In this document: positions 39,453-45,027 of the stretch, in pieces
Position numbering within the stretch: position 1 is the first letter of the stretch
How the letters are laid out: each line of letters begins with the position of its first letter
NCBI RefSeq assembly: GCF_003144115.1
Contig: NW_020312013.1
Span: 62,001-126,000, forward strand
Reading direction: 5' to 3'
From: Tilletiopsis washingtonensis
Taxonomy: Eukaryota; Basidiomycota; Exobasidiomycetes; Entylomatales
Length of the DNA stretch: 64,000 bases
Program-made: the position numbers and the translations under genes
Notes under the pieces: model-generated
Database searches by the model: none
The model's input: only the letters and a program-made list of their open reading frames with translations
What the model was told of the DNA's origin: nothing

Positions 39453-42400
39453 TCAGCTTGAGCCGGAAGCGCCGGCACCTGCAGACGGCTGCGCTTGCTG
39501 GCTGAGCATCTTCGTCCAGTCGAGCGCGTCCCAGCCGCGCTGCTTGAAGGCGGCGATGGCAGCTGTCTGCTGACGAGGGTCGAGCCGGCCGGGCTTGCGC
39601 CATTGCCGCGGCTCGAGCTCGAGCAGCGTGCCGATGATCTCGCTGGCGAACCATCTGCAGGGCCGATGTCAGATCGCACACCGCCTCTGTGAGCGCTTGT
39701 CCCACTCACTTTGGGAACGCGCCGCCGCTGCGCTGGCCTTCGGCGAAGCCGTAGTCGTCGCCATCGGCGTCCATGTTGTTCTCGCCCTCCTCGATGACGT
39801 GCCCGTAGCCCTTCTCGCCTTTGTAGTCCCACTGCACCATGAAGTACGGCAGCTGCGGCACCATGGCGCGGCGGAAGGGGCGCGCGCTCGAGAAGTCGAT
39901 GAGCTTGCGGTTCTGCGACCACTCCGTCTCGACGCTGAGGATCTCCTGGCGGAACGTGCCCGGCAGCACTGGGTGCACGTCCTGCGGCACCGGCATGCAC
40001 TCGATGAACGTGTGCTTCTGGTGCTTGAGCGTTGCCACGGTCTCATAGAAGACGTACGCCTGGCCGAGCTTGTGTGCGAGCTGCATGAGGCACTTCATGA
40101 AGTTCTGCAGCGCGGGTCAGCGCAGTGAGAAGGAGGCAAGCCTCGAGACGCATACCTTGATCTCGTCCCACGTGTCATCGTCCGCCTCCAGTGAGCTCAA
40201 ATGATGCTGCATGGGCACGATGAGGCAGTGCCCGTCTACGAGCGGCGCACCCTCTGGCAAGGCCAGGTAGGCGCGCGTGCCGGTGCTGACGCTCGCAGCC
40301 CGCGGCGGTGCGGCGCCCTCGTCCTGCCAGCAGAAGCGGCAAGTGTCGAGTGCCTTCTTTGTCTTGGCGAAGTCTGCGATAGCGGGTCAGCGCAGATCCT
40401 CTCGCTGCTAGCGGCTTGCACGCACCCTGAATCGCGAATTGCCGCTTCATGGCATCTGCGGCGACATCGTAAGCGGATGGCAAAGACGACCTGCGGCAGT
40501 CACGCACCGGTCTTCATCTTCTTGCGCGCCAGGCGCTCTGCGTTCTCGTCCATGTAGTCCAAGTTGTGCTGCAGAGGACGCGTCAGCAATCAGTCTTGCC
40601 ACCTGCTCGTCGCGATACGCACGTCGTAGCGAGCATCGTTCATGATGCGGCCCGCAAGCTCGGCATCCATGCTCTTCTGGTCCGCGCTGCCGGCGCCGAA
40701 GCGCTCTTGCCGCACGAGCTCTGCGAGTGTGACGCTGTCGTCGTCGGCATTGACGCGGAGCAGCTCGCCCGTCTTCGGGTCGTGCGTCTCGAACTGAAGC
40801 AGGCAGCTGAGGTCAGTCTAAGATCAACTGCGGTGGCCGCACGCCAGACGCACCTTCTGCCGGTCAGGATTGTTCTTCTCGCGCAACCGGTTCCCAGAAG
40901 TGATGCCAGGCGCGTCTTCGCCAGGACGTCCGGTGCCGACGTCGTACAGGCGGCCGTGTCCATCCAGAGTTGGCAGCACCTGTACGTCTGCGCTCTGCTC
41001 GGCACTGCGCACGTGGCCCTGCGAGTCCATGGTGCCCAGACCGCGGTCGCCGCCGCTGGCCTTCGCGCGCTCCCGCTCGAGCTCTTCGCGCAGAGCCGCT
41101 GCATTTGGCGCCGACATGAGCTCAGCGCGCATCACCTTGGCTTGCAGGCGATTCAGCGCCGACGTGTCGAGCGCGGGGCCGCTGGTCTCGGCAGAGCCTG
41201 AAACGTGCTCAGCCGCTTGCCGCGTGGCATCGGTGGGCCCGGCGCTCTCGCCCGACTGCACAGCACGCCGCGGAATCGTCGGCGTGAACACGCTGGGCAC
41301 CGGCGTGCCCGGCTTGCTGCCCGGCGTGTCGTAGCCGCTCTGCTGGAAGCGACGCACGGCCGGCGTCGGTGCGGCCGCCGGTGTGCCCGGCGCGCTCGAC
41401 TCGCCCGGCTTGCGGAAGCTCGCGCGCGACGACGGCCGGCTGATGCCCTCGCCGCCTGGCGAGCTGAACATGAAGCCCTTAGGACGCGCGCTGGCCGAAG
41501 GCGTGTTGCGTCCGCTCGAGAGGCCGCTCGAGGTGTTGCCGCCGCCGCCGCTGCCGGCGCGCCCACCTGCTCTGTCGTCGAGGAATTGCCGCTCGGCGCG
41601 AGCCTCGTTGAAGTCGGCCAGCGTGGCGTAGCGCTCCTTCGCCACGTCCTCGACATCGCGTCCCTCTTCCTCAGCCGCCTCGTAGACGCGGCGCAGCTTC
41701 ATCATGCGCCACTGGTGGCCGGCAGAGCCTGGCGCGACAGCAGCCTTGGCTGCACATGCAGCATGTCAGTAGGCGGCAAAGGAGTGCAGCATGGAGGCCG
41801 AGCCGTGGCTCTATCACCCCCGCAGCAGCCAGCCACTCACTCTCAGTCTTGTAGTCGTCCAGCGCCTTGCCCTGCACGAGCTGCTCATTGAGCTCGCGCT
41901 TCGACACGTGCAGCTTCTCCGGGTCCGGCTTCTCCTCGCGCGGCTTGCGCTCGCGGTCGCGGCCGAGGCGCGCAAACATGTCGCCCTCACCGACTGGTGC
42001 GCCGGTGAGCGGGTCAAGACGCGGCGGCGGCGGCTCGAGCTCAGGCCCGGCCTCGGAGTGGCTCGTCGCAGTCGGTGCGTCGCGCGGCAGCGGCAGTGCA
42101 TCGGACGCAAGGCGAGACGCTGTCATGGGACCAGACAGCGACAGCGAGGCGGACGTGGGGATGGTGGATGCAGGATCCTGCAGAGCATCACCAGTGAGCT
42201 CAAGCCCAGCTCAGTCCGCTTCTCCGCCTCAGCGCGGCGCTCACCTGCATGGAGAAGTCCATCTCTCTGGACGGGTCGGGCTCCCGCTCGTCGTCGTCGA
42301 TCACCCCGCCATCCCGCCGGGAGTCGTCGTCATCCCTGCGGTCGCGACGGCTGCTACTGCCGTGCTCGCGGCGCGGCGAGCGCGAGCGCCGGCGCGACGA

Positions 42401-43006: not shown

Positions 43007-45027
43007 CTAGCCGTGAGCTGAGAGGCGGTGATGGTCAGCAGTGTCGGGCTGCGGCGGGAGGCGCTGCGCTGCACGCACCTTGCGGATTGTGCTTCTCCTT
43101 GGTATCGGTCGCCGCACGGGTGTAGCCCTCGCCGAGCTTCTCGCCCTTGCGTGCCTTCGACAGCACGCGCTCGCTGCAGGCAAGGTGTCAGAGACAGGCC
43201 AGACGCACGCCGCTGCGGCACTCACATGGCGTCGCAGCCGCGCTCGCACTCCTCGATCGTCGGGCCGTAGCTGATGCGCACGAAGGGCTCGGACGCGCTG
43301 TCGACGATGTTGCGCCGGTGCGACGGGCTAGCAAGATGGCGCAGTAAGCAGAGCGCTGCGCGACAGAGCTGCGTGCCGACTCACTTGACGTCAAAGACGA
43401 TGCCCGGCGTGACGATGACCTTCTCGCGCAGGCACTCCTCGGCGAAGACCAGGCCGCTGTTGAGCGGGCTGCTCAGCTGACTCAGATTAAGCCAAAGCTG
43501 CGATGCGAGAGTCAGCACTGCGACCTCTGGCTTCTGCCCACGCCAGGCCCACGTAGAATCTGCGATGCGAGAGTCAGCACTACGACCTCGCTTCTGCCCA
43601 CGGCAGACTCACGTAGCAACCGGCGGCACCGTCACCGGCAGGCCCATGCGCTCAAGCCGCTTCAGCATGTACTCGCGCTTCATGCGGAAGTGCTTCTGCA
43701 GCGCCTCGCGGTCCTGCACGACACGCTGCGGGTCGAGCATCTGCAGCGCCAGCACCTGCATTGGGTGGCTGGCGCCGCCGTCGAGGTACGAGCCGGCCTG
43801 CGAGATGGCCTGTCGCAGGTGTCAGCTACGCGTCGATGGGGATGGGCCAGCTGCAGTCACCGAGATGAGGTCCTTGCTCCCGGCAACCCAGGCCACGCGC
43901 CAGCCCGGGCAGCGCCAGCCCTTGGTCAGGCCGTCGATGAGCGCCAGGTTGCACTCGTTGGGGTCCTCGATGTACTGCGCGGCCGACACGGCACGGCCGA
44001 CGGGGCCCTCGTGCAGGTACCAGGCGTAGAACTGCGGCAAGTCAGCAGCGCGCAGACTCAGAAGCCCTCTGCCGCACGCACCTCATCCACAATCATCGTC
44101 GTGTCGGAGCGCAGCGAAAGCTCGACGAGCTCGCGCAGCTCCTCGCCCTCGATGAGCGTGCCGCACGGGTTGCGCGGATTGGAGAGCAGCACGGCCGTGA
44201 GGCCGCGGTCGTGGATCTCCTGCCGCAGCTGCTCGACTTTAAGCTTGAAGCCGTCTCTCTCAGCCAGCTGCAGCGGGATGCTCTGGACCTTGCCGAAGGA
44301 GCCGAGCAGCGGCTCGTACGCGGCGTAGTCCGGCACCTGAGGAGGTGCTTAGTTAGGCGTGACGGTGGGCTTTAGCGTCGGCCTCACCTGGTAGCCGAGC
44401 ATGATCGGCGAGATGACGCTCATCAGGCGACTCAGGCCAGCGCGGCCGCCAGGCACGACGCAGATGTTCTCTGCCTCAAAGGGGATCATGCCCTTGCGGA
44501 ACGTCACGTTGTAGTAGTCTGCGCCGGCCAGTGAGCAGAATGCTGAGGTCGCGCGCCATGCTGCCCTCACCCGCGATCTTCTGGCGCAGCGCCGGGATGC
44601 CGGCCGTCGGGCCGTACTCGTGGATGTCGTCGCCAAAGTCCTCGACCTCGAGCTGCGTCGGCTTGGGTGCTGCGCCGGGGATCTGGCCCGTCTCTGGCGC
44701 GCCCTGGCCAAAGTTGGCCCACTGCGGATGCTGTATCAGCCAGGTGCCGCGCTGCTAGGCCCCTTATCAGCCCTGCCTCACCTCCTTGTTGCCCGGGTAG
44801 TAGCCGTTGGCCGCCGCGCGCTCCGAGACGTACACGACGCCGACGGAGCCGGGGTGCTCGATGCCGGGCACGACGTGCGGCTGCGCGCCCTTCTTGGACG
44901 CGGCGCGGTGGCCGGGCTGCTCGCGGAAGAGGCGGTGCGCCTCGCTCTGCGTCTCGTGCACCAGCGACGCCGCCGCCTCGGCCACGGGCGCCGCGACGGG
45001 CGAGATGACCTTCTTGAGTGTGTCCAT
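43007..45027 (-). CDS. PLP-dependent aminotransferase, class I/II
   Basis: Fold-type I aminotransferase, cytosolic by appearance (no presequence). The start at 45027 gives MDTLKKVISPVAAPVAEAAA. Landmarks: HEYGPTAGIPALRQKIADYY, CVVPGGRAGLSRLMSV, NPRNPCGTLIEGEEL (NPxNPxG-like), the PLP lysine in DGLTKGWRCPGWRVAWVAG, and FVRISYGPTIEECERG. About eight introns. One region is extraordinary: exon sequence ending GTTGCTAC (43613) is followed by a 53-nt intron, the 7-nt exon ATTCTAC (43559-43553), and a 55-nt near-copy of the first intron, then CTTTGGCTT. Only this splicing yields ATFYLWLNLSQL, which fits the family; skipping the microexon or keeping intron 2 gives an early stop. The last intron leads to a short end NPQAHG. 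The substrate amino acid is not predictable. Confidence 0.88.
43498..43613. repeat. Tandem intron duplication around a 7-nt microexon
   Basis: On the minus strand, intron A (43612-43560, 53 nt) and intron B (43552-43498, 55 nt) are near-identical along their length. Both contain gtgggcagaagc, a gtgctgactctcgcatcgcag-type 3' end with the same CTGAC branch site, and the same acceptor. The donors differ: GTGAGT in A, GTGGGC in B. Both are preceded by CTAC. The 7 nt between them are coding. Confidence 0.9.

Follow-up and report, generated by a model that had tools for sequence, protein, structure and literature searches.

Homologous introns on either side of a 7-nt microexon in an aminotransferase gene of Tilletiopsis washingtonensis

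The routes by which spliceosomal introns are gained are still a matter of dispute, and the source of many gained introns is unrecognised, according to the available text of PMC3443670. Intron transposition has been described for Mycosphaerella (Torriani et al. 2011, as related in the same available text of PMC3443670) and for yeast (Lee and Stevens 2016, as related in excerpts of PMC6726248). By the PMC3443670 account, as far as its available portion goes, reverse splicing had been demonstrated solely with a mutant factor and solely back into the original site, ESTs and cDNAs had yielded no reverse-spliced intron, and tandem duplication was the sole gain mechanism demonstrated in vivo by then. 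Excerpts of PMC2891723 prefer tandem duplication over reverse splicing for that study's Drosophila cases, and those of PMC4974935 describe whole introns multiplied by tandem duplication along with exon sequence. In the smut lineage Ustilaginomycotina, intron loss exceeds gain, at least in the accessible part of PMC8476143. Here we describe a pair of introns, found in a 64-kb window (the whole stretch of DNA analysed) of an 18.7-Mb genome in 32 contigs, one of which appears to be an end-to-end copy of the other, an exceptionally clear record of the way in which a gene can acquire a new intron. A literature search for a seamless intron copy flanking a microexon returned no such case, with subscription papers and preprints mostly outside its coverage.

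The pair lies in a gene for a PLP-dependent aminotransferase, whose coding region (43007..45027, minus strand) comprises 11 exons and 10 introns of 50–61 nt; in our hand-made model, built from the sequence, splicing out the ten introns gives 492 residues with zero internal stops. The closest proteins come from Meira (65% identity over 96% of the query), Ceraceosorus (64%) and Tilletiaria (60%), which we take to be smut-lineage fungi. The product also matches PF00155 (class I/II) with an E value of 6.1e-42, and this match and the Meira homologue together confirm an earlier identification of the gene as an aminotransferase. In the same model, the last coding exon, which follows intron 10, is just 11 nt long (43007–43017, minus strand; CTCACGGCTAG). 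Searching the whole window against Rfam at the gathering threshold gave zero matches, and the RNA fold around the intron pair is ordinary (z −1.23).

Intron A (43560..43612, minus strand; 53 nt, phase 2) has the donor GTGAGT, and intron B (43498..43552, minus strand; 55 nt, phase 0), which is A's copy or source, has the atypical donor GTGGGC; both end in the acceptor CAG. The two are identical at 49/53 aligned bases and differ by one 2-nt indel and by mismatches at alignment columns 4, 6, 10 and 33, so that the final 22 nt, with a branch-like CTGAC and the acceptor, are the same in A (43560..43581, minus strand) and B (43498..43519, minus strand). Their alignment score of 84 compares with a maximum of 44 in 20,000 dinucleotide shuffles of B with its ends kept (z = 11.6) and with a best score of 30 among the remaining 44 intron pairs within the gene. 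On this alignment, we regard A and B as homologous. A general repeat finder gives the repeat as two pieces, and Tandem Repeats Finder gives none. The tetranucleotide CTAC closes both the exon upstream of intron A (43613..43616, minus strand) and the microexon before intron B (43553..43556, minus strand), and precedes 0/8 of the other introns of the gene; the four borders read CTAC/GTGAGT, CAG/ATT, CTAC/GTGGGC and CAG/CTT. A previous, sequence-only reading had proposed that near-identical introns of 53 and 55 nt, alike through branch site and acceptor and each preceded by CTAC, reflect duplication of one intron, and the scores and borders above bear this out; the end coordinate it gave, 43613, is one base too far, as intron A ends at 43612.

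Between the introns lies the 7-nt microexon ATTCTAC (43553..43559, minus strand), which finishes a Thr codon and then encodes Phe-Tyr. Among five splice forms tested, the sole open one includes the microexon and removes both introns, giving PPVATFYLWLNLS. Joining the outer exons directly, with the microexon skipped, gives VATFGLI followed by a stop; a stop follows at once when intron A is retained, whether or not B is too; and retaining intron B shifts the frame and leads to a stop shortly past the intron. The microexon is thus essential for the frame, just as had been argued before, and we infer from the reading frame that the present transcript has both introns removed and the 7-nt exon retained. 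In the 120 homologues listed of 743 above threshold, the Phe and Tyr of the microexon occur in 120/120 and the preceding Thr in 117/120. Because Phe and Tyr are invariant in these listed homologues, the microexon is, as judged from protein comparison, old, ancestral coding sequence and not a product of the duplication.

A fragment search (120 proteins listed of 451 matches) places TFY directly before one of I, L, V, M, H or C followed by W in 118/120, and the proteins P0207 and P0241 begin downstream. No clear case of a retained intron at this site appears among these 120 listed proteins, P0158 being odd: this 116-residue metagenome protein reads GTFYSLIKSNTVATFYMW, with the TFY motif twice at the microexon site, which may reflect intron retention or a small duplication. 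Genome-wide, patterns in which CTGAC plus an acceptor is followed after 3–20 nt by a donor number 121 with GTGAGT and 230 with GTGCGT, versus 47 and 109 for reversed-pattern controls; the control is a crude one, and the matches, which overlap in part, are candidate exons by pattern alone. These counts suggest that very short exons are not rare in this genome. A 7-nt exon is perhaps less exceptional in this genome than had been supposed; the surprise is the seamless local intron copy rather than the tiny exon.

Could the pair be an artefact, either an assembly duplication or a wrong gene model? The model comes from sequence alone and from one assembly, which leaves room for such an error. An assembly duplication is nevertheless unlikely from the sequence itself, because the copies differ at 4 sites and by a 2-nt indel and because the loss of one 60–62-nt unit on collapse would take the invariant Phe-Tyr with it and disrupt the frame; overall, we consider an artefact very improbable indeed.

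The copying also seems to be confined to this spot. A genome search with a 66-nt query (E<=10) recovered A and B alone, and one with the 22-nt 3' part (<=3 mismatches) recovered A, B and two 3-mismatch sites; no third copy of the intron was reported by the genome-wide DNA search, which skips very common words and scores only the best candidates, making its copy counts lower bounds. Because no third copy was reported, a local event is indicated rather than an introner burst, and we rejected membership in an introner or introner-like family, A and B being the only copies reported. A scan of 264 kb (the window plus 200 kb) considered 618 candidate introns and 1588 pairs starting <1.5 kb apart; its four hits scoring >50 were all overlapping versions of A/B, and it revealed no second similar intron pair in those 264 kb, which amount to about 1.4% of the genome scanned with strict motifs, so that similar pairs elsewhere are possible. 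As to intron position in relatives, a scan of viral contigs gave 12 pattern matches with no relative among them, and plasmids gave no match.

Compared with an assumed ancestor that had one intron, at either of the two sites, the present sequence contains exactly one intron more. The inserted intron cannot be shifted by even one base on either side and is thus seamless at both GT and AG. Given this fixed placement, neither the target site nor any exon has been duplicated; a search at the insertion for a target-site duplication of the DNA-transposon type found none, with zero slack left and right. As to intron gain by double-strand break repair of the Daphnia type, in which short direct repeats flank the new intron, no direct repeat abuts either border here, and CTAC recurs 3 nt from A's right border, where it is explained by coding sequence. 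Plain tandem duplication was rejected, as no exon sequence is duplicated beyond the CTAC that the coding sequence already explains; had intron and exon been tandemly duplicated in one step, 7 extra nt would remain and the frame would be broken, and the AGGT-bordered duplicated exonic segment of the tandem genomic duplication model is absent at the A/B borders. A stwintron was likewise rejected, the locus consisting of two complete introns with 7 nt of required coding sequence between them. The locus does share with intron transposition a whole-intron similarity with an identifiable source and, given the assumed one-intron ancestor, a seamless insertion; its 7-nt spacing also falls within the <32 nt of near intron pairs. 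The sequence-only reading had offered tandem duplication or reverse splicing: reverse splicing survives as our preferred reading, and simple tandem duplication does not, with no exon duplicated and the microexon old.

We favour intron transposition, a reading of the sequence to which we give an even chance of being right: one intron would be a seamless copy of the other, set down 7 nt away in a formerly single-intron spot. After excision, the intron would have been reverse-spliced at the second CTAC, which lies 7 nt from the position it had left; the reverse-spliced copy could then have reached DNA directly or via unspliced pre-mRNA. Fully spliced cDNA would be a less likely vehicle, because gene conversion with such a cDNA would tend to remove the neighbouring intron 7 nt away. 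The presence of introns 5 and 8, with exons of 197 and 113 nt between them and the pair, also speaks against a long spliced cDNA as the replacing sequence. Reverse splicing at the second CTAC would explain both exact borders in one step. There are also arguments against transposition. First, landing 7 nt from the source would be more natural for a local DNA event. Second, the exact borders can also reflect selection, because imprecise copies would have broken the gene. Finally, a 4-base CTAC match is expected by chance about 1 time in 256, and this one was noticed after the fact. A variant that we find doubtful is stuttered reverse splicing, in which, after excision, the spliceosome would have re-engaged the same transcript or DNA one register off and inserted the intron again, the slip in register being due to a repeat of the four exon bases CTAC at a distance of 7 nt. 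If this variant were true, the coexisting pair would represent the missing intermediate of intron sliding, with the copy made first and the old intron lost later.

The locality of the copy is also what a DNA route would predict, either by a template switch during replication or repair or in two stages, the intron first being tandemly duplicated together with ATTCTAC and a deletion across the CTAC repeats then removing 7 nt. The CTAC repeat offers 4 nt of microhomology for such a deletion or for a forward jump. In addition, the intermediate and the final allele can both yield the ancestral peptide, on paper: splicing of the first donor to the second acceptor would keep the intermediate silent by restoring the old mRNA, which, once the deletion had occurred, would be restored by including the 7-nt exon instead. 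There is also precedent, in that tandem duplications with whole introns plus exon sequence are known, for example in Arabidopsis TOUCH3 (from the available part of PMC4974935). Against this route, the boundary between the intron end and ATT lacks microhomology and yet falls exactly at the splice site, and the route calls for either two template jumps or two steps that are both precise. We regard the DNA route as a real possibility, short of probable, and rank reverse splicing ahead of a DNA-level template switch; sequence alone cannot decide between them.

One homologue bears on which of the two introns is older. The Microbotryum intermedium protein P0114, the sole one with such an insert among the 120 listed, carries 23 extra residues exactly between FY and IW, that is, at site B. 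The insert starts with VS, as GTNAGY would, and contains KLT, as a CTNAC branch site would; its acceptor, read from the protein as GAG, would be unusual. From these features, the insert is probably an in-frame intron at site B that has been retained in the annotated protein, and P0114 thereby hints that site B may have carried an intron for a long time. Used as a query, the Microbotryum insert matched itself alone. By contrast, an intron retained at site A would be invisible in proteins, since GTRAGT in phase 2 after AC produces an immediate stop; the lack of a retained intron at site A in proteins therefore means nothing. An old intron B would also suit a scenario in which unrelated introns once occupied both positions and one was replaced by the other through short-range gene conversion, with CTACGTG common to the left edge and the branch-acceptor consensus to the right. 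Unrelated introns, however, offer too little homology for ordinary conversion, and nothing points to an older intron at site A, which proteins could hardly reveal, so we consider such overwriting improbable.

In a rough splice-site census, for which 88 introns were inferred and 60 kept, donors were GTGAGT in 16/60, GTGCGT in 12/60, GTGGGT in 2/60 and GTGGGC in 0/60; the census returned 4/10 introns of the aminotransferase gene, each with one or both ends displaced, and only its general donor pattern is used here. The atypical GTGGGC of B, set against the standard GTGAGT of A, suggests only that B has decayed. Across the pair, 4 substitutions in 53 sites correspond to 7.5% divergence (Jukes-Cantor 0.08). 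To call the duplication ‘recent’, as was done earlier, is a guess, the divergence being 7.5% rather than zero.

The coding sequence around the pair is unusual in composition. Third-position G/C is 4/11 in codons 382–392 (43480–43620, minus strand) versus 92% across the gene, and for eight scan widths of 5–31 codons, the reported (first) minimum always falls on the intron pair. In codon shuffles for this stretch, which was picked out prior to the test, the minimum was reached in 26 (9 codons), 8 (11), 17 (13) and 49 (15) of 5000, and in 3321 (5), 1018 (7), 293 (21) and 510 (31) of 5000 at the other widths. Third-position G/C is 8–10/10 at the junctions of introns 1–5, 8 and 9 and is also low, at 6/9 codons, at that of intron 10, near the gene end. 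A possible cause of the dip is selection for an AU-richer microexon context; it may also be a scar of the duplication event.

The next gene downstream (39453–40386, minus strand) is CwfJ/Cwf19-like, with CwfJ_C_1 and CwfJ_C_2 matches in 3/4 ORFs; a family search with five further ORFs of the region assigned none. This family is, we presume, tied to the spliceosome and lariat turnover. Beside a duplicated intron it makes no more than a curious neighbour.

More broadly, the locus confines source, copy and target to 115 nt, with exact borders and an invariant protein motif that limits what the mRNA can be. Should its nearest relatives prove to have a single intron there, the locus would be of use in telling copying at the RNA level from copying at the DNA level. 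It would then also provide a concrete intermediate for intron sliding, a model that, in the available text of PMC2891723, supposes that two neighbouring introns are almost never present together.

As in the transposition reported from Mycosphaerella and yeast, so far as the sources' excerpts describe it, a whole intron with an identifiable source occupies a second site; here, by contrast, source and copy share one gene, where they coexist at a distance of 7 nt. The pair resembles introners and the sister stwintrons of Hypoxylaceae (available part of PMC8469720) in the near-identity of the introns, their seamless integration and the fungal host, whereas it comprises two copies, with no others reported in the genome, and is not nested. 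Tandem genomic duplications in potato RdRp and in Drosophila similarly add an intron by local duplication, but those cases, in the accessible portions of PMC4974935 and PMC2891723, respectively, duplicate exon sequence or intron-exon borders, and here none is duplicated except the CTAC explained by coding. Finally, like near intron pairs, the two positions are <32 nt apart; coexistence of both introns in one gene is considered very unlikely for such pairs in the excerpted PMC2891723, whereas here both coexist, as copies.
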